From positions 1,085,001 through 1,149,000 of the forward strand of contig JACYXH010000702.1 of NCBI GenBank assembly GCA_026745465.1: a DNA stretch of 64,000 bases, in the 5' to 3' direction. Below the pieces are notes generated by a model, which was not told the DNA's origin, searched no databases, and worked only from the letters and a program-made list of their open reading frames with translations. Below, in pieces: positions 12,215-64,000 of this stretch. The position numbers and the translations under genes are program-made. This DNA comes from Lota lota. Taxonomy: Eukaryota; Chordata; Actinopteri; Gadiformes; Lotidae. The number at the start of each line of letters is the position of its first letter. Within the stretch, counting starts at the first letter, position 1.

Positions 12215-42392
<30,178 letters not shown>

Positions 42393-42400
<8 letters not shown>

Positions 42401-42790
42401 ACACTGCAGCTTTAACCCTGTACACACATAGTCTGAACACTGCAGCTTTAACCCTGTACACACATAGTCTGAACACTGCAGCTTTAACACTGTACACACA
42501 TAGTCTGAACACTGCAGCTTTAACCCTGTACACACATAGTCTGAACACTGCAGCTTTAACACTGTACACACATAGTCTGAACACTGCAGCTTTAACCCTG
42601 TACACACATAGTCTGAACACTGCAGCTTTAACACTGTACACACATAGTCTGAACACTGCAGCTTTAACCCTGTACACACATAGTCTGAACACTGCAGCTT
42701 TAACACTGTACACACATAGTCTGAACACTGCAGCTTTAACCCTGTACACACATAGTCTGAACACTGCAGCTTTAACACTGTACACACATA
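42393..42790. repeat. 36-bp minisatellite starting at the stop codon
   Basis: Eleven copies of TAGTCTGAACACTGCAGC plus TTTAACCCTGTACACACA. From copy two on, ACCCTG and ACACTG variants alternate strictly, so the true period is 72 bp. Confidence 0.96.
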
Positions 42791-43447
42791 GTCTGAGCGC
42801 TAACGGGCTCTGTCTGAGCTCTAACGGGCTCTGTCTGAGCGCTAACGGGCTCTGTCTGAGCGCTAACGGGCTCTGTCTGAGCGCTAACGGGCTCCGTCTG
42901 AGCGCTAACGGGCTCTGTCTGAGCGCTAACGGGCTCCGTCTGAGCGCTAACGGGCTCTGTCTGAGCGCTAACGGGCTCCGTCTGAGCGCTAACGGGCTCC
43001 GTCTGAGCGCTAACGGGCTCCGTCTGAGCGCTAACGGGCTCCGTCTGAGCGCTAACGGGCTCCGTCTGAGCGCTAACGGGCTCCGTCTGAGCGCTAACGG
43101 GCTCCGTCTGAGCGCTAACGGGCTCCGTCTGAGCGCTAACGGGCTCCGTCTGAGCGCTAACGGGCTCCGTCTGAGCTCTAACGGGCTCCGTCTGAGCGCT
43201 AACGGGCTCCGTCTGAGCGCTAACGGGCTCCGTCTGAGCGCTAACGGGCTCCGTCTGAGCTCTAACGGGCTCCGTCTGAGCGCTAACGGGCTCTGTCTGA
43301 GCGCTAACGGGCTCCGTCTGAGCGCTAACGGGCTCTGTCTGAGCGCTAACGGGCTCTGTCTGAGCTCTAACGGGCTCTGTCTGAGCTCTAACGGGCTCTG
43401 TCTGAGCGCTAACGGGCTCTGTCTGAGCGCTAACGGGCTCTGTATGA
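42790..43447. repeat. 21-bp minisatellite GAGCGCTAACGGGCTCTGTC
   Basis: About 31 copies of the 21-bp unit, with T/C variants (CTCTGTCT or CTCCGTCT) and occasional GAGCTC. GC-rich against its surroundings, presumably in the 3' untranslated region or just downstream. Confidence 0.96.
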
Positions 43448-43988
43448 ACACTACAGCATGTACACCTTGGGGACAGAGTGCTACCTTCACTAACCCTTAA
43501 CCCTTTCCGCACACACATTGGGATCTGGCAGACAGGTGGCTACTGTGTGGTTTGTAACGATTTGAAGTGGTCTTTGCTTTTCTGTTCATCTGTAACAAAG
43601 ACTTCCCTGATGCTTGGATCTAGTTTTATCATCTCTTTGTTTATTGTTGTATTTCGTAAATTAAATTATTTGCTATTTCTATCCTATCATGCAATTGTGA
43701 GTACGTGTAAAGATTTAATTCATGGACAACTTACAGAAAAACTTGGATGGAGATGATGGAATGTCGATTTTATCTTGTGCATCTTATCTCACACTATCTG
43801 TATGGCCTCACTCCTCAGCCAGTAATTCTGTACGTATGTTCTATAACATTTTATCTGACCCTACATATACTGTATGCTACCAACTCTTTTCCAATGAAAG
43901 TAGCTAGCACTAGCTACGCACTAGCTCCAAAAGTCGCTCAATTCGCCAGATGATGTCACACGCTCGTTTGAATTTTGATGCGATCATA

Positions 43989-44274: not shown

Positions 44275-45150
44275 AACACACTGGGTTAGTTAGATCTTTA
44301 TAAGAACACAGTGGGTTAGTTAGATCTTTACAAGAACACACTGGGTTAGTTAGATCTTTACAAGAACACACTGGGTTAGTTAGATCTTTACAAGAACACA
44401 CTGGGTTTGTTATATCTTTATAAGAACACAGTGGGTTAGTTAGATCTTTACAAAAACACATTGGGTTAGTTAGATCTTTATAAGAACACAGTGGGTTAGT
44501 TAGATCTTTATAAGAACACACTGGGTTAGTTAGATCTTTATAAGAACACAGTGGGTTAGTTAGATCTTTACAAGAACACACTGGGTTAGTTAGATCTTTA
44601 TAAGAACACAGTGGGTTATATAGATCTTTACAAGAACACAGTGGGTTAGTTAGATCTTTACAAGAACACACTGGCTTAGTTAGATCTTTATAAGAACACA
44701 CTGGGTTAGTTAGATCTTTATAAGAACACAGTGGGTTAGTTAGATCTTTACAAGAACACACTGGGTTAGTTAGATCTTTACAAGAACACACTGGGTTAGT
44801 TAGATCTTTATAAGAACACAGTGGGTTAGTTAGATCTTTACAAGAACACACTGGGTTAGTTAGATATTTATAAGAACACAGTGGGTTTGTTAGATCTTTA
44901 TAAGAACACAGTGGGTTAGTTAGATCTTTATAAGAACACCGTGGGTTAGTTAGATCTTTACAAGAACACACTGGGTTAGTTAGATCTTTACAAGAACACA
45001 CTGGGTTAGTTAGATCTTTATAAGAACACAGTGGGTTAGTTAGATCTTTACAAGAACACACTGGGTTAGTTAGATCTTTATAAGAACACACTGGGTTAGT
45101 TAGATCTTTACAAGAACACACTGGGTTAGTTAGATCTTTAGAAAAACACA
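44275..45150. repeat. 30-bp minisatellite
   Basis: About 29 copies of ACACTGGGTTAGTTAGATCT plus TTACAAGAAC, with C/G and C/T variants. The 30-bp period keeps an antisense ORF open (KDLTNPVCS repeats), which I do not consider a gene. Confidence 0.96.
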
Positions 45151-45262
45151 CTGTAAGAGTAAGAGGTTCATATCCCTGGATGGAGCATAGCAGCTGTGGT
45201 CTGTGGTTCCAACATCCAAGAAGAACATGCCCGTTTCACACGCCACTCTTATCTACGTCACT

Positions 45263-45606: not shown

Positions 45607-46670
45607 CTGTCCTGGTGGCTTAATGTGTATTCACATTTTTTGAAATTACAATTTCAGTGTGTAAAGGCTTAGGAGGATGAAATGTAAACTCCCTAATTTA
45701 AAGGGTTAGGATAACATGTTAATTTAGTAATTTAAAGAGTACGTTTAAAATATAAACTAAGTCATTCGGGGGGTTAGGGTTAGCCAGGGCCGGCTCTAGG
45801 GGACCTCAGCCAGATCTTCTCACCTTACTTGCCTGGAGCCAAGAACTATGAACTAAAACAAAGGGGAGGGCAAGAGAGGGCAGGGAGGGTAAAGGAATTC
45901 TCTTCTTTATGGACAAATATAACATTTTCATTTTCTGCCATTGGACAAAAGTCATGGCGATGGCTTTGCTACCGCGAAAGGTGTCCAATGGCAGAAGCCC
46001 TACCCTGCAGTAGGATTGTCATTGGACGTTCTGCTGCACCGCACTAAATAAATAATGATAACCAAACAACTAGGGGAAAATTATAATGTTGTGACAGTAT
46101 TGTAAATGTTAGAATTGTAATATTTTAAACAGATATGTTGCTTGAGATGATGGAATTTGTGTATATACTTTTTTATTTAAATATAGACCACAATATATGT
46201 TCCTTGTGTATATGGAATGAACCAGAATGAGATGAAAAATGTATAATGTAACCCCAAAAATATATAAAATGTGTTGTCTGCAGATAACCATGTTCTATGG
46301 GGATCAGAGTAACACCGGCAGTGAGGCAGTGAGGAAAAGGGTAATGGAAGTGATAAATAGTCCAATGATGCCACCTAGTGGTGCCAGAGGAGGAACACGG
46401 GCACACTCCTCTTAAATGAAAAAACTACTGCTGCCATTATAACTTCATAAATGATGGAGAAAAAGAGAATAAGGGAGAAGAGGGTGGGAAAGGAAATTAC
46501 TATTAGTCAAAAAATTATGATACAAAAACTCACAACTAGGGGAAAGAAGGCGCATGTAGAAATAATGTTGGAATAATATTTAAAAAAAAGACAAGATGGT
46601 GCCCTGGGATCAGATAAGGAAACAGTATTTTTGTTTAATTAATTAGTCAAACAACTTGACATAATTGAAC
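45607..46670. other. Unclassified intergenic DNA
   Basis: No gene or clear repeat. CCAGGGCCGGCTCTAGG at 45785 resembles ends of some fish DNA transposons, but no partner end is seen. Confidence 0.4.
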
Positions 46671-46899: not shown

Positions 46900-47028
46900 C
46901 AAGAGACGTCACGTGGACTCGCCCCACAGGTGTGCTAATCAGTGAAATCACCTGAAATAGGGCCCAATCGCTCCGGTCTGGTCCTTCCCTTGCGCAGTAT
47001 GCGTCCTGTGAGCAACAGTGCGTACCTT
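46900..47028 (+). promoter_or_regulatory. Candidate promoter and first exon of the repeated non-coding unit
   Basis: GACGTCACGTG (46905-46915) overlaps a CRE-like site and a CACGTG E-box. CCAAT is at 46964-46968. A donor, ACCTT|GTAAGTAAG, follows at 47029. It is the only such combination upstream of the array. Inference only. Confidence 0.35.
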
Positions 47029-47780
47029 GTAAGTAAGCAAGTTATATTATTTCCCTTTACTTTGCGTAGCTTTTAGAAAATGTTGGGGTGTGTGGTGAGG
47101 ATTCTCTCTTATAGACTAACCTCCCTGAGTGTAGCCACACATTGTGGACTTCCTTGGTGTCTTTATCCTTGATTTGACGAATGTCTTTAGTCAATATATC
47201 TTCTGTCTGTGGTTCCAGTTTATTCTGGGTTTTGTGTGTCGGATAGTACCTGGGTCACATAAAGACCAGTTTTGATTTCTCACAGCATTTCTGACAATTG
47301 TTTTTGATTCAGTAACTAGGGTTAGGAAATCCGTGGCTTCTCTTACTTTGTGAAGCCAAACTATTTTAAGGGAACGTCTTAGAAGGGATCTGTCCCCTTC
47401 ACCGTAGTGCTTTGAATAGAATTGGAACCGCTTATTAAAAGTCCAAAGTGCAAATTAACTTGAATCAAATTAATTATAGATTTGACCAAGCCGTCGAAGG
47501 GTTCAGATGAAAACTAGTCTTATGGATATGTCTGAAGATATCCGACATTTGAAAAACCCAACTAGGGTTAGATATGGTCTAAGTATTTATATAAAGGGTT
47601 AGTATAAAAGAACGAGAGAAGGGGAAGGATAATTATTTTGTAAAGATGTAAACCCAAAAGGAGGGTTCAGTCCTTTGGTTGGATTTATTTTCTTGTTCTT
47701 CATACGTTGTTGGGTTGTGCCGCAGGGGTCTGAGGGTCCGAGGAAGGAGCAGAGCACAGCTTGGTTGGTTTTTGTATTTA

Positions 47781-47955: not shown

Positions 47956-48592
47956 TAGTCCTTTTTAATATTTACATTTTATATATATCATTTCATCCTT
48001 TGTATTTGAAATGTTTTTTTTTAATTTATATTCTATTTACTGAAGCATTAAACGGTTGCTCTCAAATGTGTGGCTTATGCGTCATATGTTTCCAAAGAAT
48101 TTAAGAATTCTAAATGAACAGTGATTTCTTTTTCAGGGTCAGGTTGTAGTCTAGAGCAGGGTTCTACAGAGCTGTCCGATCCAGGAGCGCTACATTCCAA
48201 GAGATGCAGAAGGGTGAGACAATGAGCCACACATCTCTAATTTCTTATTACTAATGTAATTCCATCTTCAATCAAGACTACACTGTTGTGGAAGAAGGTC
48301 CATGTAAAATAAAGTGTAGCCATGTGAGTGAGCTATAGCATTACTGGAGTAAAATAAATAATAAAAATAAAACACGTTTTAACTTTTAGAAGGACTGAGG
48401 CGATGCACCTGGAGGTCCTTGTGGTGGTCAGCTGGAGGTCCTTGATGTCAGCTATCTGATAAGTATTTCTTTATGATGGCTATAGTTTAAAACCCACCAT
48501 ATTTCTTATAAGAAGTGTGTTATAGGTCAACGTTCATTCACGTATTTAGCTATTACTCGGGTTGGTTTAAAGTCCTTTAGGGACGCCAACAG

Positions 48593-48659
48593 TATGCAAG
48601 TGGCGCTGAAACACATGAGGACGTAGTACTCCCTAATGTGTTTCTAGCTCCACTTGTGT
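48593..48659 (+). ncRNA. pre-miRNA-like hairpin, copy 1
   Basis: Same fold as copy 2. Two changes: CTCATG becomes CTAATG, which breaks one pair in the inner stem, and CCGCTT becomes CCACTT, which turns a U-G wobble into U-A. Confidence 0.45.
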
Positions 48660-48775
48660 CTGTAAAGCCCGGATAATGGAGGATATACGTGAATGAAGGT
48701 GGCCAAACACGCATCCTTTGTATTTGGTTGAGTTTTACACATAAGCCAAACAGTAAAAACTGTTTTATTTCACAG

Positions 48776-48921
48776 GAGCGGAACCACAGCGGCCCCAGAC
48801 AGAGATCCGACAGCACCTCCAGGAGATTGGCACTCCTGACGTCTCATCCCACAAACTGTTACCTGGCCTCTGATTCAGAGAGGCTCCACTAACGTCAAAG
48901 CAGAGTACAAGACAACCACCA
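48776..48921 (+). ncRNA. Exon-like block B, copy 1
   Basis: 146 bp between TTTCACAG and GTAAGT. No through-frame. Identical boundaries in the next four copies argue for a real exon. Confidence 0.45.
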
Positions 48922-50043
48922 GTAAGTTAGAATAGTCACCTTTCTGGTCATTTGATTTAGTGTTTTATGTGTACGCTTTAGTTTAAAACCTGACCTATTT
49001 ATTGTAAGTGTTAATGCAGTTGTGTAGGTCAACATTCATTCAGATATATCACAATACTCAAGACGCTTCCATGTATTAGCAAAGTAATGAACAGTATTTT
49101 TTGTTCATGTTTTAGGCAACAGTGGTGTTGTACAGAGCTGTCTGATCCAGGACTGGTGCTGGGAGCTGCAGGTGGAGGGAAGGCCAGGAGCGGTGCAGTC
49201 CAAGAGATACAGAAAGGTGAGACAATGAACCCCCCATTTCTAATTTCTCATTACTAATGTAATTCCATCTTCAATCAAGACTGCGCTGCGTGGAAGAAAG
49301 TCCATGTAAAATAAAGTGTAGCCATCTGAGTGAGCTACAAGCATTACTGGAGTAAAATACATATTTGCATCGTGACGGGGAGAACAAATGTTCAGTGTGC
49401 AAATAATACACATTTGAACTTTCAGAAGGACTGAGGCGATGCAGCTGGAGGTCCTTGAGATGGTCAGCTGGAGGTCCTTGTGGTGGTCAGCTGGAGGTCT
49501 TTGCGGTGGAGGTCAGCTATTTGATTTATGATTTGATTAATGGCTATAGTTTAAAACTTGTGTACAAATGTTCAGTGTGCAAATAAAACACGTTTGAACA
49601 TTCAGAAGGACTGAGGTGATGCAGCTGGAGGTCCTTGTGGTGGTCAGCTGGAGGTCCTTGCGGTGGTCAGCTGGACGTCCTTGATGTCAGCTATGTAGTA
49701 AATATTTGTTTTTGGCAATAGTTTAAAATTGTTGTGTAGAAATGTTGTGTGTGTGTGCAAATAGAACATGTTTGAGCTTTCAGAAGGACTGAGGCGATGC
49801 AGCTGGAGGTCCTTGCGGTGGTCAGCTGGAGGTCCTTGCGGTGGTCAGCTGGAGGTCCTTGCGGTGGTCAGCTGGAGGTCCTTGCTGTCATCTATCTGAT
49901 AAGTATTTCTTTATGATGGCTATAGTTTAAAACCCACCGTATTTCTTATAAGAAGTGTGTTAATGCAGTGTTATAGGTCAACATTCATTCACGTATTTAG
50001 CTATTACTCGGGTTGGTTTAAAGTCCTTTAGGGACGCCAACAG

Positions 50044-50110
50044 TATGCAAGTGGCGCTGAAACACATGAGGACGTAGTACTCCCTCATGTGTTTCTAGCT
50101 CCGCTTGTGT
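50044..50110 (+). ncRNA. pre-miRNA-like hairpin, copy 2
   Basis: The 5' arm TATGCAAGTGGCGCTGAAAC then ACATGAGG faces CCTCATGTGTTTCTAGCTCC then GCTTGTGT. The loop is ACGTAGTACTC. Counting by hand, 26 of 27 arm positions pair (three wobbles) with one C/U mismatch and one bulged U. It lies in the intron-like segment 116 bp before block B. I do not recognise the sequence as a known miRNA. Confidence 0.5.
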
Positions 50111-50226
50111 CTGTAAAGCCCGGTTAATGGAGGATATACGTGAAAGAATGTGGCCAAACACGCAGCCTTTGTATTTGGTTGAGTTTGACACATAAGCCAA
50201 ACAGTATAAACTTTTTTATTTCACAG

Positions 50227-50372
50227 GAGCGGAACCACAGCGGCCCCAGACAGAGATCCGACAGCACCTCCAGGAGATTAGCACTCCTGACGTCTCATCC
50301 CACAAACGGTTCCCTGGCCTCTGATCCAGGGAGGCTTCACTAATGTCAAAGCAGAGTACAACACAACCACCA
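50227..50372 (+). ncRNA. Exon-like block B, copy 2
   Basis: 146 bp with the same acceptor and GTAAGT donor as copy 1. Confidence 0.45.
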
Positions 50373-52481
50373 GTAAGTTAGAACAGTCACCTTTGTCATT
50401 TGATTTAGTGTTTTATGAGTTGGCTTTAGTTTAAAACGTGACGTATTTATTGTAAGTGTGTTAATGCAGTTTTATAGGTCAACATTCATTCAGATTTTTC
50501 ACCTTACTCAAGACTTTTCCATGGATTATCAAAGTAATGAACAGTATTCTTTGTTCAGGGTTAGGTTGTAGTCTAGAGCAGGGTTCTACAGAGCTGTCTG
50601 ATCCCGGACTGTTGCTGGGAGCTGCAGGTGGAGGGAAGGCCAGGAGCGGTACATTTCAAGAGATGCAGAAGGGTGAGTCAATGAACCACACGTCTCTAAT
50701 TTCTTATTACTAATGTAATTCCATCTTCAATCAAGACTACACTGTGTGGAAGAAGGTCCATGTAAAATAAAGTGTAGCCATCTGAGTGAGCTATACGCAT
50801 TATTGGAGTAAAATACATAATTACATCGCTGACGGGGAGATCAAATGTTCAGTGTGCAAATAATACACGTTTGAACTTTCAGAAGGACTGAGATGATGCA
50901 GCTGGAGGTCCTTGCGGTGGTCAGATGGAGGTCATTGCGGTGGTCAGCTGGAGGTCCTTGATGTCAGCTATTTGATAAGTATTTCTTTATGGCTATAGTT
51001 TAAAACTGTTGTGTCCAAATAAAACACGTTTGAACTTTCAGAAGGATTGAGGCTATGCGGCTGGAGGTCCTTGTGGTGGTCAGCTGGAGGTCCTTGCGGT
51101 GGTCAGCCTGAAGTCTTTGCGATGGAGGTCAGCTATTTGATTTATGATTTGATTTATGGCTATAGTTTAAAACTGTTGTGTACAAATGTTCTGTGTGCAA
51201 ATAAAACACGTTTGAACTTTCAGAAAGGACTGAGGCGATGCAGCTGGAGGTCCTTGTGGTGGTCAGCTGGAGGTCCTTGTGGTGGTCAGCTGGAGGGCCT
51301 TGTGGTGGTCAGCTGGAGGGCCTTGTGGTGGTCAGCTGGAGCTCTTTTCAGTGGAGGTCAGCTACTTGATTTATGATTTGATATGTGATTAATGGCTATA
51401 GTTTAAAACTTGTGTACAAATGTTCCGTGTGCAAATAGAACATGTTTGAACTTTCAGGACTGAGGCGATGCAGCTGGAGGTCCTTGCGGTGGTCAGCTGG
51501 AGGTCCTTGCGGTGGTCAGCTGGAGGTCCTTGCGGTGGTCAGCTGGAGGTCCTTGATGTCAGCTATTTGATAAGTATTTCTTTATGGCTGTAGTTTAAAA
51601 CTGTTGATTGCAAATAAACCACGTTTGAACTTTCAGAAGGATTGAGGCTATGCAGCTGGAGGTCCTTGTGTTGGTCAGCTGGAGCTCTCTGTGGTGGAGG
51701 TCAGCTATTTGATTTATGATTTGATAATTGATTAATGGCTATAGTTTAAAACTTGTGTACAAATGTTCAGTGTGCAAATAAAACACGTTTGAACTTTCAG
51801 AGGGACTGGGGCGATGCAGCTGGAGGTCCTTGCGGTGGTCAGCCTGAGGTCCTTGATGTCAGCTATTTGATAAGTATTTCTTTATGGCTATAGTTTAAAA
51901 CAGTTTTGTGCAAATAAAACACGTTTGAACATTCAGAAGGACTGAGGTGATGCAGCCGGAGGTCCTTGTGGTGGTCAGCTGGAGGTCCTTGAGGTGATGC
52001 AGCCGGAGGTCCTTGCGGTGGTCAGCTGGAGGTCCTTGAGGTGGTCAGCCTGAGGTCCTTGTGTTGGTCAGCTGGAAGTCTTTGCGGTGGAGGTCAGCTA
52101 TTTGAGTTGATTTCTGGCTATAGTTAAAAACTTTTGTGTACAAATGTTCTGTGTGCAAATAAAACACGTTTAAACTTTCAGGACTGAGGCGATGCAGCTG
52201 GAGGTCCTTGCGGTGGTCAGCTGGAGGTCCTTGCGGTGGTCAGCTGGAGGTCCTTGCGGTGGTCAGTTGGAGGTCCTTGCGGTGGTCAGCTGGAGGTCCT
52301 TGCTGTCAGCTGGATGTCCTTGCTGTCAGCTATCTGATAAGTATTTCTTTATGATGGCTATAGTTTAAAACCCACCATATTTCTTATAAGAAGTGTGTTA
52401 ATGCAGTGTTATAGGTCAACATTCATTCACGTATTTAGCTATTATTCGGGTTGGTTTAAAGTCCTTTAGGGACGCCAACAG

Positions 52482-52548
52482 TATGCAAGTGGCGCTGAAA
52501 CACATGAGGACGTAGTACTCCCTCATGTGTTTCTAGCTCCGCTTGTGT
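52482..52548 (+). ncRNA. pre-miRNA-like hairpin, copy 3
   Basis: Identical to copy 2 over the 67 nt. Confidence 0.5.
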
Positions 52549-52664
52549 CTGTAAAGCCCGGATAATGGAGGATATACGTGAATGAATGTGGCCAAACACG
52601 CATCCTTTGTATTTGGTTGAGTTTTACACATAAGCCAAACAGTAGAAACTGTTTTATTTCACAG

Positions 52665-52810
52665 GAGCGGAACCACAGCGGCCCCAGACAGAGATCCGAC
52701 AGCACCTCCAGGAGAATGGCACTCCTGACGTCTCATCCCACAAACGGTTCCCTGGCCTCTGATCCAGAGAGGCTTCACTAACGTCAAAGCAGAGTACAAC
52801 ACAACCACCT
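52665..52810 (+). ncRNA. Exon-like block B, copy 3
   Basis: 146 bp. The last exon base differs (CCT|GTAAGT) but the donor is kept. Confidence 0.45.
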
Positions 52811-54427
52811 GTAAGTTAGAAGAGTCACCTTTCTGGTCATTTGATTTAGTGTTTTATGTGTACGCTTTAGTTTAAAACCTGACCTATTTATTGTAAGTGT
52901 GTTAATGCAGTTGTGTAGGTCAACATTCATTCAGATATTTCACAGTACTCAACACGTTTCCATGGATTTGCAAAGTAATGAACAGTATTTTTTGTTCAGG
53001 GTCAGGTTGTAGTCTAGAGCTGGGTTCTACAGAGCTGTCTGACGCTGGGAGCTGCAGGTGGAGGGAAGACCAGGAGCGGTACAGTCCAAGAGATGCAGAA
53101 AGGTGAGACAATGAACCCCCCATTTCTAATGTCTCAATGCTAAAGCAATTCCTTCTTCAATCAAGACTACACTGCGTGGAAGATGGTCCATGTAAAATAA
53201 AGTGTAGCCATCTGAATGAGCTATAGCATTACTGGAGTAAAATACATAATTACATCGTGACAGGGAGAACAAATGTTCTGTGTGCAAATAAAACACGTTT
53301 GAACTTTCAGAAGGACTGAGGCGATGCAGCTGGATGTCCTTGCGGTGGTCAGCTGGAGGTCCTTGCGGTGGTCAGCTGGAGGTCTTTGTGGTGGAGGTCA
53401 GCTATTTGATTTATGATTTGATTAATGGCTATAGTTTAAAACTTGTGTACAAATGTTCAGTGTGCAAATAAAACACATTTGAACATTCAGGACTGAGGCA
53501 ATGCAGCTGGAGGGCCTTGCGGTGGTCAGTTGGAGGTCCTTGCGGTGGTCAGCTGGAGGTCCTTGCGGTGGTCAGCTGGATGTCCTTGATGTCAGCTATT
53601 TGATAAGTATTTCTTTATGGCTGTAGTTTAAAACTGTTGATTGCAAATACAACACGTTTCAACTTTCAGAAGGATTGAGGCTATGCAGCTGGAGGTCCTT
53701 GTGGTGGTCAGCTGGAGGTCCTTGTGTTGGTCAGCTGGAGCTCTCTGTGGTGGAGGTCAGCTATTTGATTTATGATTTGATAATTGATTAATGGCTATAG
53801 TTTAAAACTGGTGCACAAATGTTCAGTGTGCAAATAAAACACGTTTGAACTTTCAGAGGGACTGGGGCGATGCAGCTGGAGGTCCTTGCGGTGGTCAGCC
53901 TGAGGTCCTTGATGTCAGCTATTTGATAAGTATTTCTTTATGGCTATAGTTTAAAACAGTTTTGTGCAAATAAAACACGTTTGAACATTCAGAAGGACTG
54001 AGGTGATGCAGCCGGAGGTCCTTGTAGTGGTCAGCTGGAGGTCCTTGAGGTGGTCAGCCTGAGGTCCTTGTGTTGGTCAGCTGGAGGTCTTTGCGGTGGA
54101 GGTCAGCTATTTGATTTGAGTTGATTTCTGGCTATAGCTAAAAACTTGTGTACAAATGTTCTGTGTGCAAATAAAACACGTTTAAACTTTCAGGACTGAG
54201 GAGATGCAGCTGGAGGTCCTTGCGGTGGTCAGCTGGAGGTCCTTGCGGTGGTCAGCTGGAGGTCCTTGCTGTCAGCTATCTGATAAGTATTTCTTTATGA
54301 TGGCTATAGTTTAAAACCCACCATATTTCTTATAAGAAGTGTGTTAATGCAGTGTTATAGGTCAACATTCATTCACGTATTTAGCTATTATTCGGGTTGG
54401 TTTAAAGTCCTTTAGGGACGCCAACAG

Positions 54428-54494
54428 TATGCAAGTGGCGCTGAAACACATGAGGACGTAGTACTCCCTCATGTGTTTCTAGCTCCGCTTGTGT
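54428..54494 (+). ncRNA. pre-miRNA-like hairpin, copy 4
   Basis: Identical to copy 2 over the 67 nt. Confidence 0.5.
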
Positions 54495-54610
54495 CTGTAA
54501 AGCCCGGATAATGGAGGATGTACGTGAATGAATGTGGCCAAACACGCATCCTTTGTATTTGGTAGAGTTTTACACATAAGCCAAACAGTAAAAACTGTTT
54601 TATTTCACAG

Positions 54611-54756
54611 GAGCGGAACCACAGCGGCCCCAGACAGAGATCCGACAGCACCTCCAGGAGATTGGCACTCCTGACGTCTCATCCCACAAACTGTTCCCTG
54701 GCCTCTGATCCAGAGAGGCTTCACTAACGTCAAAGCAGAGTACAACACAACCACCT
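54611..54756 (+). ncRNA. Exon-like block B, copy 4
   Basis: 146 bp; same splice signals as copy 3. Confidence 0.45.
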
Positions 54757-56768
54757 GTAAGTTAGTAGAGTCAACGTTCTGGTCATTTGATTTAGTGTTT
54801 TATGTGTACGCTTTAGTTTAAAACCTGACATATTTATTGTAAGTGTGTTAATGCAGTTGTGTAGGTTAACATTCATTCAGATATATCACAGTACTCAAGA
54901 CGTTTCCATGGATTAGCAAAGCAATGAACAGTATTTTATGTTCATGTTTTAGGCAAGAGTGGTGTTGTACAGAGCTGTCCGATCCAGGACCGATGCTTGG
55001 AGCTGCAGGTGGAGGGAAGGCCAGGAGTGCTACAGTCCAACAAGGTGAGACAATGAACAGCACATCTCTTTAATTGTAGTAGTAATGATCGTAATTCCAT
55101 CTTCAATCAAGGCTACACTGTGTGGAAGAAGGTAAATGTAAAATAAAGTGTACCCATCTGAGTGAGTTATAAGCATTACTGGAGTAAAATATATATTTGC
55201 ATCATGACGGGGAGAACAAATGTTCAATGTGCAAATAAAACACGTTTGAACTTTCAGAAGGACTGAGGCGATGCAGCTGGAGGTCCTTGTGGTGGTCAGA
55301 TGGAGGTCCTTGTGGTGGTCAGCTAGAGGTCCTTGCGGTGGTCAGCTGGAGCTCCTTGATGTCAGATATCTGATAAGTATTTCTTTATGGCTATAGCTTA
55401 AAACAGTGAGTGCAAATAAAACTCGTTTGAACTTTCAGAAGGACTGAGGCGATGCAGCTGGAGGTCCTTGATGTCAGCTATTTGATAAGTATTTCTTTAT
55501 GGCTATAGCTTAAAACAGTGAGTGCAAATAAAACTCGTTTGAACTTTCAGAAGGACTGAGGCGATGCAGCTGGAGGTCCTTGCGGTGGTCAGCTGGAGGT
55601 CCTTGATGTCAGCTATTTGATAAGTATTTCTTTATGGCTATAGTTTAAAACTGTTGTGTGCAAATAAAACACGTTTGAACTTTCAGAAGGATTGAGGCTA
55701 TGCGGCTGGAGGTCCTTGTGGTGGTCAGCTGGAGGTCCTTGTGGTGGTCAGCTGGAGGTCCTTGCGGTGGTCAGCCTGAAGTCTTTGCGGTGGAGGTCAG
55801 CTATTTGATTTATGATTTGATTTCTGGCTATAGTTTAAAACTGTTGTGTACAAATGTTCTGTGTGCAAATAAAACACGTTTGAAATTTCAGGACTGAGGT
55901 GATGCAGCTGGAGGTCCTTGTGGTGGTCAGCTGGAGGTCCTTGTGGTGGTCAGCTGGAGGTCCTTGTGGTGGTCAGCTGGAGGTCCTTGTGTTGGTCAGC
56001 TGGAGCTCTTTTCAGTGGAGGTCAGCTACTTGATTTATGATTTGATATGTGATTAATGGCTATAGTTTAAAACTTGTGTACAAATGTTCATGTGTGCAAA
56101 TAGAACATGTTTGAACTTTCAGGACTGAGGCGATGCAGCTGGAGGTCCTTGTGGTGGTCAGCTGGAGGTCCTTGTGGTGGTCAGCTGGAGGTCCTTGTGG
56201 TGGTCAGCTGGAGGTCCTTGTGTTGGTCAGCTGGAGCTCTTTTCAGTGGAGGTGAGCTACTTGATTTATGATTTGATATGTGATTAATGGCTATAGTTTA
56301 AAACTTGTGTACAAATGTTCCGTGTGCAAATAGAACATGTTTGAACTTTCAGGACTGAGGCGATGCAGCTGGAGCTCCTTGATGTCAGCTATTTGATAAG
56401 TATTTATTTATGGCTGTAGTTTAAAACTGTTGATTGCAAATAAAACACGTTTGAACTTTCAGAAGGATTGAGGCGATGCATTTGGAGGTCCTTGTGGTGG
56501 TCAGCTGGAGGTCCTTGTGGTGGTCAGCTGGAGGTCCTTGCGGTGGTCAGCTGGAGGTCCTTGCGGTGGTCAGCTGGAGGTCCTTGCGGTGGTCAGCTGG
56601 ATGTCCTTGCTGTCAGCTATCTGATAAGTATTTCTTTATGATGGCTATAGTTTAAAACCCACCATATTTCTTATAAGAAGTGTGTTAATGCAGTGTTGTA
56701 GGTCAACATTCATTCACGTATTTAGCTATTACTCGGGTTGGTTTAAAGTCCTTTAGGGACGCCAACAG

Positions 56769-56835
56769 TATGCAAGTGGCGCTGAAACACATGAGGACGT
56801 AGTACTCCCTCATGTGTTTCTAGCTCCGCTTGTGT
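56769..56835 (+). ncRNA. pre-miRNA-like hairpin, copy 5
   Basis: Identical to copy 2 over the 67 nt. Confidence 0.5.
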
Positions 56836-56951
56836 CTGTAAAGCCCGGATAATGGAGGATATACGTGAATGAAGGTGGCCAAACACGCATCCTTTGTATT
56901 TGGTTGAGTTGTACACATAAGCGAAACAGTAAAAACTGTTTTATTTCACAG

Positions 56952-57097
56952 GAGCGGAACCACAGCGGCCCCAGACAGAGATCCGACAGCACCTCCAGGA
57001 GATTGGCACTCCTGACGTCTCATCCCACAAACGATTCCCTGGCCTCTGATCCAGAGAGGCTTCACTAACGTCAAAGCAGAGTACAACACAACCAACA
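56952..57097 (+). ncRNA. Exon-like block B, copy 5
   Basis: 146 bp; ends CCAACA|GTAAGT. Confidence 0.45.
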
Positions 57098-58205
57098 GTA
57101 AGTTAGAAGAGTCACCTTTCTGGTCATTTGATTTAGTGTTTTATGTGTTGGCTTTAGTTTAAAACCTGACCTATTTATTGTAAGTGTGTTAATGCAGTTG
57201 TGTAGGTCAACATTCATTCAGATATTTCACAGTACTCAACACGTTTCCGTGGATTAGCAAAGTAATGAACAGTATTTTTTGTTCAGGGTCAGGTTGTAGT
57301 CTAGAGCTGGGTTCTACAGAGCTGTCCAATCCAGGACTGGCGCTAGGAGCTGCAGGTGGAGGGAAGGCCAGGAGCGGTACAGTCCAAGAGATGTAGAAAG
57401 GTGAGACAATGAACAACACATCTGTAATTTCTTATTACTAATGTAATTCTATCTTCAATCAAGACTACACTGCGTGGAAGAAGGTCCATGTAAAATAAAG
57501 TGTAGCCATCTGAATGAGCTATAAGCATTACTGGAGTAAAATACATATTTGCATCATGACGGGGAGATCAAATGTTCAGTGTGCAAATAATCCACGTTTG
57601 AACTTTCAGAAGGACTGAGGTGATGCAGCTGGAGGTCCTTGAGGTGGTCAGCCTGAGGTCCTTGTGTTGGGCAGCTGGAGGTCTTTGCGGTGGAGGTCAG
57701 CTATTTGATTTATGAGTTGATTTCTGGCTATAGTTAAAAACGTGTGTACAAATGTTCTGTGTGCAAATAAAACACGTTTAAACTTTCAGGACTGAGGCGA
57801 TGCAGGTGGAGGTCCTTGCGGTGGTCAGCTGGAGGTCCTTGCGGTGGTCAGCCTGAGGTCCTTGTGTTGGTGGTCAGCTATTTTATTTATGATTTGATTA
57901 ATGGCTATAGCTTAAAAGTGTTGTGTATACATTTTTAGTGTGCAAATAGAACAAGTTTGAACTTTCAGAAGGACTGAGGCGATGCAGCTGGAGGTCCTTG
58001 TGGTGGTCAGCTGGAGGTCCTTGTGGTGGTCAGCTGGAGGTCCTTGCTGTCATCTATCTGATAAGTATTTATTTATGATGGCTATAGTTTAAAACCCACC
58101 ATATTTCTTATAAGAAGTGTGTTAATGCAGTGTTATAGGTCAACATTCATTCACGTATTTAGCTATTACTCGGGTTGGTTTAAAGTCCTTTAGGGACGCC
58201 AACAG

Positions 58206-58272
58206 TATGCAAGTGGCGCTGAAACACATGAGGACGTAGTACTCCCTCATGTGTTTCTAGCTCCACTTGTGT
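58206..58272 (+). ncRNA. pre-miRNA-like hairpin, copy 6
   Basis: One change from copy 2 (CCGCTT to CCACTT), which keeps pairing as U-A. Confidence 0.5.
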
Positions 58273-58388: not shown

Positions 58389-58536
58389 GACCGGAACCAT
58401 AGCGGCCCCAGACAGAGATCCGACAGCACCTCCAGGAGATTGGCACTCCTGATGTCTCATCCCACAAACGATTTGCTGACCTTGGTGTCTGATCCAGAGC
58501 TACATCAGTTATTTTGTTAATGCTGCACAACCAACA
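58389..58536 (+). ncRNA. Exon-like block B, copy 6 (diverged 3' half)
   Basis: 148 bp. The first 95 bases match the others, the rest is different, and the GTAAGT donor is retained. It is the last module before unique sequence. Confidence 0.45.
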
Positions 58537-59124: not shown

Positions 59125-59159
<35 letters not shown>

Positions 59160-59307: not shown

Positions 59308-59379
59308 GACTGCGTCCAGGAGGAGAGGATGGACCAAAGTGTTTCAGTACAGCGGCCTAAAGACCCCACGTGGATCCGG
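59308..59379 (+). CDS. Candidate unique exon with small ORF start
   Basis: 72 bp between AACTCAG and CCGG|GTAAGA. ATG at 59329 (A at -3, G at +4) opens MDQSVSVQRPKDPTWIR, which continues in phase 0 into the next two exons for 35 residues in all. No known family recognised. It could equally be part of a non-coding transcript. Confidence 0.35.
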
Positions 59380-59943: not shown

Positions 59944-59988
59944 GCACCAGATGTGCATCAGATGGGTGGTGATGCTGCAGAGACCCAG
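59944..59988 (+). CDS. Candidate small ORF, middle exon
   Basis: 45 bp between AAATAG and CCCAG|GTGAGA, in frame: APDVHQMGGDAAETQ. Confidence 0.35.
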
Positions 59989-60434: not shown

Positions 60435-61145
60435 TGTGATGACTGAAGAGAGTCGATGTACACCAGCGTCCTATTCCCCATCCTCCCTTAGGATCCCCGG
60501 CTACACCCGCACACCATATTGACTGTACTGTTTCAACGTTTAGAACAAACTACACGATGCCACACCACATTTTGGTGAAGTATGTTTTGATGTGTCTACT
60601 TTATTTCTGTAAACCATAGCTATGATCCAAGCCCTCGTATATGTAACCCCGTAGCTGTGAACCCTCTTTTTAAGGGATCGACTAAAGGGACAAGCCGGAA
60701 GCAAACGTTATCCTTGATCTTCTTTGTAACCCTAATGCCTCAATTGAACCACAAGTTTAATGTAATACCTAAATTAACATGTGCAATGCCCAAGCTGTCT
60801 TACCTAATAGCTAAACATCTAAAATGCCTAGACTTGCATAGGTAATGAGTAACGTAATGCATAAAGCTCACTTCATTTGTAAAGGTATAATAATAAAGGT
60901 AAAGTAATGCCTATACCAAACAGGGCCTAAACTTTATCCTAACTAACTGTATATCCTATTTGAAACGTTATACAAAGCTAACCATCCTTAATGTGAAACT
61001 GTAAACCAGCCTTGTCCCTCGGCTGCTCTGCTTTATTGTTCAAAGTTTTTCCCTATCAGGGTGTTGATTTAGAATCGCGGGCTTGAAGTGCTTTGTATAT
61101 GTGAAGACTTGTTGCTTGATAAATAAACATGCTTTCTCTTTACCC
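60435..61145 (+). ncRNA. Candidate 3' terminal exon
   Basis: Begins after CTTCACAG with TGTGATGACTGA, which would end the small ORF (CDD stop). AATAAA at 61122-61127 gives a plausible 3' end. Otherwise non-coding. Confidence 0.4.
61122..61127 (+). terminator. Candidate poly(A) signal
   Basis: AATAAA followed within 30 bases by a T-rich stretch (TTTCTCTTTACCC). Confidence 0.45.
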
Positions 61146-62275: not shown

Positions 62276-62462
62276 TTGTAGTCTATTAAGGAGTAATATT
62301 AAAATGGCAAAGGAACGACATAGAGCATAGTGTTGTTCCATCCAGTATTAATAGAAACAGCGTAATGTCATAATCATGTTATATTTCTAACATTTATTTT
62401 TGTCATTAAGAACATTTTGAACCCTTTAGTCATTAATTCAACCAATTTAATCAATTCAATTT

Positions 62463-64000
62463 AAGTTGTGCGCATAGCGTATGAAACGTAGCCTGGGGAT
62501 CCTTGACTCATCCACTCATTATAAGTAGTTAGTTATTAGGGATATTAAAGATTTTCACTTGGACACTGTCTTTGAATCAAAAGTTGTAAGCGTTGAAGAA
62601 GCCAAGGATGTATTTAATTTAAGCTGTAAACGGAATGCTTGTTAATTGGACGTCCATATTATTCCGTCACCAGTGTCGTGGCTGTGATTGGTTGTAGCTG
62701 TACAATAACGTCCAGAGGCATTTGAATTTTTGCCCGCTGTTGACGTGCTTCGGAAATGTCAAACTGCATTTAGAATACGGCGCTGTTATGTTATAATTGT
62801 TGATTTCAGAGGCCAAGAACGACAGTAAAGATACTTTGAAGGGATTTTAAGGAATGAAGAAGCTCATCGAACGAGGTATGTAGTTGAAACGTAATAGGTG
62901 CCGAGTGTCGTTTGAATTTTGGCGCCCAGCGCCATTTGTATTTCCATTGGTTGTCACTGTGGCCACATTAGAAAGAATAATCTCGTGCTCTTTTTAACGC
63001 AAGTGCTTGTTACTACGCATTTAATGTAGTCACTTTTGAGTCGTTACATTGTTGTACACATGCTTGTCGAAGGATGTGGCTTTATCTGAAGTTGTAATCC
63101 CTGAATGTAATTGAAAAGCCAGTGAAATTTAAGTTGTGCGCATAGCGTGTGAAACGTAGCCTGGTGATCCTTGACTCATCCACTCATAAGTAGTTAGTTA
63201 TTAGGGATATTAAAGATTTTCACTTGGACAGTCCACTGTCTTTGAATCAAAAGTTGTAAGCGTTGAAGAAGCCAACGATGTATTTAATTGAAGCTGTAAA
63301 CGGTATGCTTGTTAATTGGACGTCCATATTAGTCCGTCACCAGTGTCGTGGCTGTGATTGGTTGTAGCTGTACAATAACGTCCAGAGGCATTTTAATTTT
63401 TGCCCGCTGTTGACGTGCTTCGGAAATGTCAAACTGCATTTAGAATACGGCGCTGTTATGTTATAATTGTTGATTTCAGAGGCCAAGAACGACACTAAAG
63501 ATACTTTGAAGGGATTTTAAGGAATGAAGAAGCTCATCGAACGAGGTATGTAGTTGAAACGTAATAGGTGCCGAGTGTCGTTTGAATTTTGGCGCCCAGC
63601 GCCATTTGTATTTCCATTGGTTGTCACTGTGGCCACATTAGAAAGAATAGGCTCGTGCTCTTTTTAACGCAAGTGCTTGTTACTACGCATTTAATGTAGT
63701 CACTTTTGAGTCGTTACATTGTTGTACACATGCTTGTCGAAGGATGTGGCTTTATCTGAAGTTGTAATCCCTGAATGTAATTGAAAAGCCAGTGAAATGT
63801 AAGTTGTGCGTATAGCGTATGAAACGTAGCCTGGTGATCCTTGACTCATCCACTCATAAGTAGTTAGTTATTAGGAATATTAAAGATTTTCACTTGGACA
63901 CTGTCTTTGAATCAAAAGTTGTAAGCGTTGAAGAAGCCAACGATGTATTTAATTTAAGCTGTAAACGGTATGCTTGTTAATTGGACGGCCATATTAGTCC
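62463..64000 (+). repeat. About 670-bp tandem repeat with exon-like block
   Basis: Units start at AAGTTGTGCG: 62463, 63131 and 63801 (periods 668 and 670). The third runs off the edge. Each complete unit holds a 66-bp block between GATTTCAG and GAACGAG|GTATGT (62810-62875, 63480-63545). Each also holds two ATTGG (inverted CCAAT) motifs and a TGGCGCCCAGCGCCA hairpin. All three frames of the block carry stops. Confidence 0.9.

Follow-up and report, generated by a model that had tools for sequence, protein, structure and literature searches.

A nearly invariant intronic hairpin, amplified across a dispersed gene family of Lota lota, as a candidate microRNA-like precursor

The window analysed herein is a 64,000 nt stretch of the Lota lota genome (contig JACYXH010000702.1, positions 1,085,001 to 1,149,000, written C702:1085001-1149000, with other contigs abbreviated likewise), which contains six tandem copies of a 67 nt hairpin, each positioned upstream of a repeated exon that we term exA. 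The hairpin array is part of a dispersed, heavily amplified gene family, and not a local curiosity, with at least 87 copies found, distributed over at least 15 copies of the gene on 13 contigs, at least 81 of the hairpins lying beyond the window. As the best explanation, we consider it probable that the hairpins constitute a homogeneous, heavily amplified family of intronic microRNA-like precursors within a spliced, non-coding host, their transcription, processing by Drosha and Dicer, and function being predicted from sequence features.

Fold of the window hairpins

All six hairpins were recovered at the positions given in the original prediction (Table 1), and folding reproduced the geometry proposed there, namely an 11 nt loop, a single bulged U, and 26 pairs joining positions 2-28 to positions 40-67, interrupted by one C-U mismatch. 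Four further basal pairs extend the stem to approximately 30 pairs. The 24 nt 5' arm occurs six times in the window with no mismatches, whilst the expectation from 100 shuffles is 0.00 even with up to three mismatches allowed. The minimum free energy (MFE) of the six copies lies between -38.9 and -45.3 kcal/mol, with z-scores of -6.8 to -8.4. For none of them did any of 200 shuffles fold as well. A microRNA precursor is expected to be a stable, single-loop hairpin whose mature region contains 16 pairs or more, and the approximately 30 pairs and strongly negative z-scores (-6.8 to -8.4) observed here lie within those bounds. In a fold scan of 100 nt stretches on both strands of the 46.8-64 kb region, copies 2-6 occupy the first five ranks; copy 1, with its broken pair, is placed eleventh, preceded by other copies read in antisense and by two minisatellite stretches, at 51960 and 51240.

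Differences between the six copies are few. The G to A change in the 3' arm of copies 1 and 6, correctly described as neutral for pairing, is G60A, which converts a U-G pair to U-A, and the copy 1 alteration said to break a pair is C43A, with the loss of one pair. The arrangement of a hairpin about 116 bp before a 146 bp block with strong splice signals likewise holds, in that the distance to the exA acceptor is 116 nt in six of six units, exA is 146 nt in five copies and 148 nt in the sixth, and every copy is preceded by TTTATTTCACAG and followed by GTAAGT. This constant separation of 116 nt does not fit a mirtron, in which the hairpin is bounded directly by the splice sites of its short intron.

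Copies across the genome and the host gene

A search of the genome (575,287,041 bases in 867 contigs) with hairpin copy 1 scored 40 of 100 candidates, and all copy counts are therefore lower bounds. It listed 79 rows, comprising at least 40 sense matches on 12 contigs; the other 39 rows are weaker, lie on the opposite strand and represent the self-complement of the same hairpins. Twenty further stretches, together with the window, yielded 80 hairpin matches (79 above a score of 40), three more stretches brought the number to 83, and two loci found via the terminal exon (exF) alone brought it to 87. Individual gene copies carry differing numbers of hairpins: ten in C517, the longest other gene copy seen; nine each in C232, C321 and C566; eight in C300; six in C343 and in the window (C702); five in C615; four in C379, at a contig end; two in C235; at least two in C705; and one in C453, with at least two at a second place on that contig. 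C489 harbours two facing arrays of seven hairpins each, in opposite directions (C489:424000-453999), and the three hairpins with indels or rearrangement are all found in the second of these. Consequently, the proposal of a single fish cluster analogous to the primate cluster C19MC stands as regards tandem, intronic hairpins in a repeated, spliced and apparently non-coding host, but not as regards a single cluster.

The gene copies follow a common plan, with a first segment succeeded by repeated units and then by three downstream exons, exD, exE and exF. A repeated unit consists of an upstream flank, the hairpin, a downstream flank, exA, a second exon (exB) and a 23 nt minisatellite with splice-acceptor-like starts. 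Both the first segment and exF are seen in 8 of the 15 gene copies (C232, C300, C321, C343, C517, C566, C615 and C702), and the first segment of the window shows a partial match of 68-87 % to eight gene copies beyond the three in Table 1. In all 79 units recognised by their downstream flank a hairpin is present, these loci having been chosen by the hairpin; a fairer test is provided by loci picked through exF, where hairpins occur at 10 of the 12 that match this exon over its full length at 94 % or better. From exF onwards C702, C615 and C232 are 99.0-99.6 % alike over approximately 2.3 kb, whilst their first segments differ. Judged from sequence, the loci are distinct, and not only alleles, and have exchanged sequence, because C702 and C615 are 99.6 % alike over approximately 2.3 kb from exF on and yet possess different first segments. 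In a tree of units, terminal copies of different loci cluster together.

The host is apparently a spliced, non-coding gene, with splicing read from its signals. Stop codons are present in frames 1, 2 and 3 of exA in 66, 67 and 66 of 67 copies, respectively, whilst its splice sites are largely kept (donor GT in 64 of 65, acceptor AG in 60 of 65). A coding host is unlikely given these stops in all frames and since none of three stretches of the host matches Pfam, although exB, which varies from 99 to 114 nt across copies, is often open. Hosts whose purpose lies in an intron, such as those of small nucleolar RNAs and microRNAs, are expected to drift in their body whilst retaining their splice sites and the intronic element, as seen here. 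A possible poly(A) signal for exF, AATAAA, is located at 61122-61127. The intron before exD contains a run of 33 C residues (59127-59159).

Rates of change across the repeated unit

It had been cautioned in the original prediction that the flanks are also nearly identical, such that the likeness of copies shows only duplication. This caveat is answered in part, as hairpin, loop, flanks and exon differ in rate, but the 100 nt upstream is quiet as well. Across 75 of 79 copies from this one genome (four were left out as too near the edge of a stretch), diversity is 0.005-0.011 in the stem cores (positions 11-30 and 41-50) and approximately tenfold higher, at 0.104, in the loop tip (positions 31-40). 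The arms as a whole are more conserved than the loop (0.023 versus 0.095), with values of 0.057 for the downstream flank and 0.093 for exA. Expressed as variable sites, the arms (8 of 52) differ from both the downstream flank (43 of 96, P 0.0003) and exA (99 of 146, P 4e-11). The distribution of change is thus different from that predicted by simple duplication.

Pairing-preserving change in the stem

To the 26 pairs of the stem, 84 ungapped copies of the 87 could be compared, the three C489 copies with indels or rearrangement being set aside, and 15 distinct changes at paired positions were found. Ten are transitions, and all ten occur in copies where the pair is kept, whilst a pair would survive 29 of the 52 single transitions that are possible (P ~0.003, with distinct changes counted as independent, although some of them may not be). 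Nine of them keep the pair alone, and the tenth, U15C, does so only together with A54G in the same copy (C300, ~1039347), constituting a two-sided change within one pair. A test of this kind on 38 of 41 haplotypes gives P 0.001.

When read as antisense, pairing is kept by 2 of the 10 transitions. Substitution in the flanks displays little bias, with 143 distinct A>G plus C>T changes versus 113 T>C plus G>A changes summed over four segments. Over 79 copies MFE values extend from -34.4 to -49.3, and the sense strand is the more stable in 78 of 79. The pattern of change suggests that a folded RNA is preserved. Selection seems to act on the RNA of the + strand, which is that of the host, because the sense transitions keep pairing in ten of ten cases and the antisense readings in two of ten, with only a small bias in the flanks.

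Evidence against a microRNA precursor and alternative explanations

A number of observations weigh against the microRNA interpretation, and the first set concerns the quiet sequence around the hairpin. Low change is not confined to the hairpin itself, since the 100 nt upstream is approximately as conserved as the arms (diversity 0.029 versus 0.023; variable sites 23 of 100 versus 8 of 52, P 0.30), and we could not account for this by the hairpin alone. Nor is the hairpin uniformly constant, with a diversity of 0.079 at positions 51-60 of the 3' arm, whilst loop and arms do not differ significantly in their numbers of variable sites (4 of 11 versus 8 of 52, P 0.20). Furthermore, the 3' parts of C702 and C615 are 97-99.6 % identical despite differing first segments, indicating that exchange between loci could help to homogenise the block. 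The conserved upstream flank, the exchange between loci and the location of several hairpin copies near contig ends, as with recent repeats, would suit a repeat without any product. On that view the block is kept uniform by tandem and segmental duplication together with gene conversion, and the inverted repeat arose in the unit by chance. The near-identity of C702, C615 and C232 from exF on also fits such exchange. Conversion, however, leaves unexplained both the variable loop tip and exon beside constant stem cores and the one-strand, pairing-keeping transitions with a two-sided change in a single pair, and we regard a product-free repeat as rather unlikely.

A second set of counter-observations comes from the stem and the host. 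All five transversions break a pair (in 13, 3, 3, 1 and 1 copies), and 3 of the 87 hairpins carry indels or rearrangement. If damaged copies and unpaired positions are included, the stem has nine distinct A>G or C>T changes and four T>C or G>A changes. A covariation test by shuffling of columns returned no signal, with 486 of 500 shuffles reaching the observed score. No CNNC motif, as judged by eye, is found at its expected place. Stops occur in frames 1, 2 and 3 of exB in only 18, 22 and 47 of 65 copies, respectively. Finally, two of the twelve close exF relatives (C232:1498866 and C816:2697737) have no hairpin within approximately 3.8 kb, and none is present over 4-5 kb at the three older host relatives viewed that far (C473, C438 and C615:368073).

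Preserved pairing could also reflect a structured RNA of another kind, for example one that governs the splicing or stability of the host, or one that Dicer cuts into products like small interfering RNAs (siRNAs). Indeed, the data indicate selection on pairing but not the identity of a product, the stem is nearly perfectly paired, and the conserved upstream flank would suit a larger element. Against this, the length, single terminal loop and approximately 30-pair stem are those of a microRNA precursor and short for an siRNA hairpin, and no Rfam family fits; an RNA of this kind is, in our view, unlikely. At gathering score, Rfam gives no match to the hairpins, UnaL2 being the sole match in the whole window. 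With E-values of up to 5, the 48-59 kb region returns two weak matches far under their thresholds, mir-3956 and MEG8_3, of which the former, the best weak microRNA match, reaches 21.4 bits against a threshold of 100.

Proposed processing and comparison with known systems

Under the microRNA-like interpretation, the host would be transcribed from the + strand and spliced, with the hairpin in the intron immediately upstream of exA being cut out as a microRNA precursor. Each such intron could contribute one precursor per host transcript, amounting to six in the window and ten in the longest other gene copy. From stem geometry, the Microprocessor is predicted to cut near positions 8-9 and Dicer near positions 30 and 40. 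The main product would most likely derive from the 5' arm, approximately UGGCGCUGAAACACAUGAGGAC, because the 5' end of this arm pairs more weakly and 75 of 83 copies are exact over positions 8-30, versus 62 of 83 for positions 40-62. Within the 3' arm, positions 40-53 are exact in 78 of 83 copies. Amplification would, in this scheme, raise the dose of one nearly invariant product rather than generate variety. We would guess that such a dose-amplified product is akin to miR-430 of the early embryo.

Rfam contains both miR-430 and C19MC microRNA families, and the lack of any Rfam match for the hairpins thus extends to homology with either. Members of C19MC have diversified. C19MC comprises 46 microRNAs over approximately 100 kb, with conserved, tandemly repeated exons, and one of two models presents its microRNAs as intronic by-products of an RNA polymerase II host (PMC7692494). 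The comparison of architecture is a fair one, as the hairpins herein lie in introns, read from splice signals, between tandemly repeated non-coding exons. The original analogy is nonetheless not supported as it stands, in that our hairpins are one nearly invariant sequence instead of a diversified set, and whilst C19MC is a single locus, this sequence recurs in 15 or more copies of the gene over 13 contigs. The miR-430 genes of fishes are similarly tandem and multi-copy, forming clusters with isolated repeat subunits in some species (PMC10417697), but the abstract of that article mentions no host with repeated, spliced exons, and our hairpins have no Rfam match. A further likeness is offered by the cluster in intron 10 of mouse Sfmbt2, a lineage-specific, intronic amplification of tandem units with 65 microRNA hairpins (PMC3212979). 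That cluster is confined to a single intron of a single gene, and its repeat region is rich in B1 elements and CA/TG repeats, whereas in L. lota the host exon is itself repeated and the whole gene dispersed.

Four 15-mers of the arms, in RNA and DNA letters, are absent from the full texts searched (supplements, miRBase and MirGeneDB being outside this search), and a topic search returned no title or abstract opening that describes this hairpin family. The exact 21-mer of the 5' arm has no occurrence in viral contigs. If the interpretation is correct, the family would escape annotation, since precursors that occur at many loci are discarded by microRNA pipelines: in a study of Atlantic cod, putative precursors were taken out as likely repeats if they had more than 50 loci (PMC4851352), and a pikeperch study discarded those with more than five (PMC10778745). 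A family of this sort could carry real reads and yet never be named. Should the hairpins be processed, they would represent a microRNA gene that is repeated to an unusual extent, yields a constant product and has a clear host architecture.

Origin of the hairpin

Among 131 candidates for the exF family, 40 loci were scored, of which 12 match at 94-100 % over the full length, 5 at 81-84 %, and 23 over 70-82 nt at 84-90 %. Older host relatives (L032-L042) carry exB, exC, exD, exE or exF in varying sets. At 8 of the 28 diverged exF loci approximately 1 kb was viewed, which is too short to reach a hairpin placed as it is here. On the evidence of the three older loci viewed over 4-5 kb, possession of the hairpin may be limited to a younger subset of the host family. 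Apparently hairpin-free relatives would, if the hairpins are processed, offer a before-and-after comparison. GC-rich, self-complementary minisatellites are present in two of the older relatives (L040 and L042).

A ninth diverged exF locus, C453:752824, is a truncated gene piece with a perfect 67 nt hairpin. Here, the hairpin (C453:752561) sits in a block of 218 bp that matches the array at 94 %, versus 68 % identity in the following alignment of 1143 bp, which has 227 gap positions. As an old copy with a perfect hairpin this locus has little weight, since comparison with relatives (L032-L035) suggests a joined piece. Such a block, together with older relatives in which no hairpin was seen, might point to the core of a mobile element, i.e. 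a miniature inverted-repeat transposable element (MITE), that entered the host and spread. The next feature after the hairpin is exA, however, in 84 of the 87 copies, and pieces or flanks of the host surround the remaining three: C235:513614 has host flanks on both sides with no exon found after it, C489:435807 is followed by only a piece of exA, and C453:752561 resides in the truncated piece described above. The hairpin accordingly does not look like a free-standing MITE among the 40 of 100 candidates scored in the genome search, and we hold this origin to be highly improbable. Dispersal of a MITE core had been named as an outcome that would undo the original prediction, and it is half borne out: the hairpin does prove to be genome-wide, but the copies seen are in company with the host.

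For the microRNA-like family as a whole, a fuller history can be put forward, to which we assign slightly less than an even chance. A fish lineage would have fitted a hairpin into one intron of an older, dispersed, spliced non-coding gene family. Hairpin, exon and gene would subsequently have multiplied, the hairpin reaching at least 87 copies across 15 or more genes with a constant product, resulting in a dose-amplified system based upon a single microRNA.

Features of the window and its surroundings

The coordinates of the hairpins, their predicted products and the exons of the host are collected in Table 1.

Table 1. Hairpins, predicted products and host gene segments within the window
Feature	Position	Strand	Remarks
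Putative first exon/promoter segment of host	46910..47038	+	99-100 % in three other gene copies (C321, C379, C517)
exB, first copy	48137..48213	+	Between TTTTTCAG and GTGAGA
Hairpin copy 1	48593..48659	+	Stem reaches ~4 nt further on each side; one pair lost through C43A, one retained under G60A
Predicted 5p product, copy 1	48601..48622	+	Hairpin positions 9-30; same offset in other copies; cut sites predicted from stem geometry
Predicted 3p product, copy 1	48632..48654	+	Hairpin positions 40-62; cut sites predicted
exA 1	48776..48921	+	146 nt, no open frame
Hairpin copy 2	50044..50110	+	Consensus sequence
exA 2	50227..50372	+	
Hairpin copy 3	52482..52548	+	Consensus sequence
exA 3	52665..52810	+	
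Hairpin copy 4	54428..54494	+	Consensus sequence
exA 4	54611..54756	+	
Hairpin copy 5	56769..56835	+	Consensus sequence
exA 5	56952..57097	+	
Hairpin copy 6	58206..58272	+	G60A, pairing kept
exA 6	58389..58536	+	148 nt up to GTAAGT donor
exD, putative downstream exon	59308..59379	+	Match and splice signals
exE, putative downstream exon	59944..59988	+	Match and splice signals
exF, start of putative terminal exon	60435..60577	+	Older dispersed family member

Downstream of the host is a second tandem array, extending from 62420-64000 into C702:1149001-1159000, with units of approximately 665-713 bp that each contain a 66 nt block with splice signals, the first being approximately 2.4 kb downstream of the start of exF. 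Upon folding, these units display no hairpin of comparable strength. The same array follows the gene copies of C232, C321, C343, C517 and C615. Two 7 nt sites within it (62927 and 63597) that match the possible 5p seed are intronic and were judged to be chance occurrences.

Upstream, the last exon of a voltage-gated sodium channel is located at 42044-42397, with an IQ motif (PF24609) and best PDB matches to types 4 and 5, in keeping with a vertebrate genome; the density of short tandem repeats is suggestive of a codfish. Its stop codon is directly followed by two long minisatellites (42400-43450), and an array of approximately 30 copies of a 30 bp unit occupies 44275-45174. The UnaL2 match is a 3' element of a long interspersed nuclear element at 39293-39346 (Rfam RF00436, 62 bits). 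A short element, CCACCTAGTGGTGCCAGAGGAGGA, lies just before the host at 46360-46400, and is found again after the downstream array in C702:1149001-1159000.

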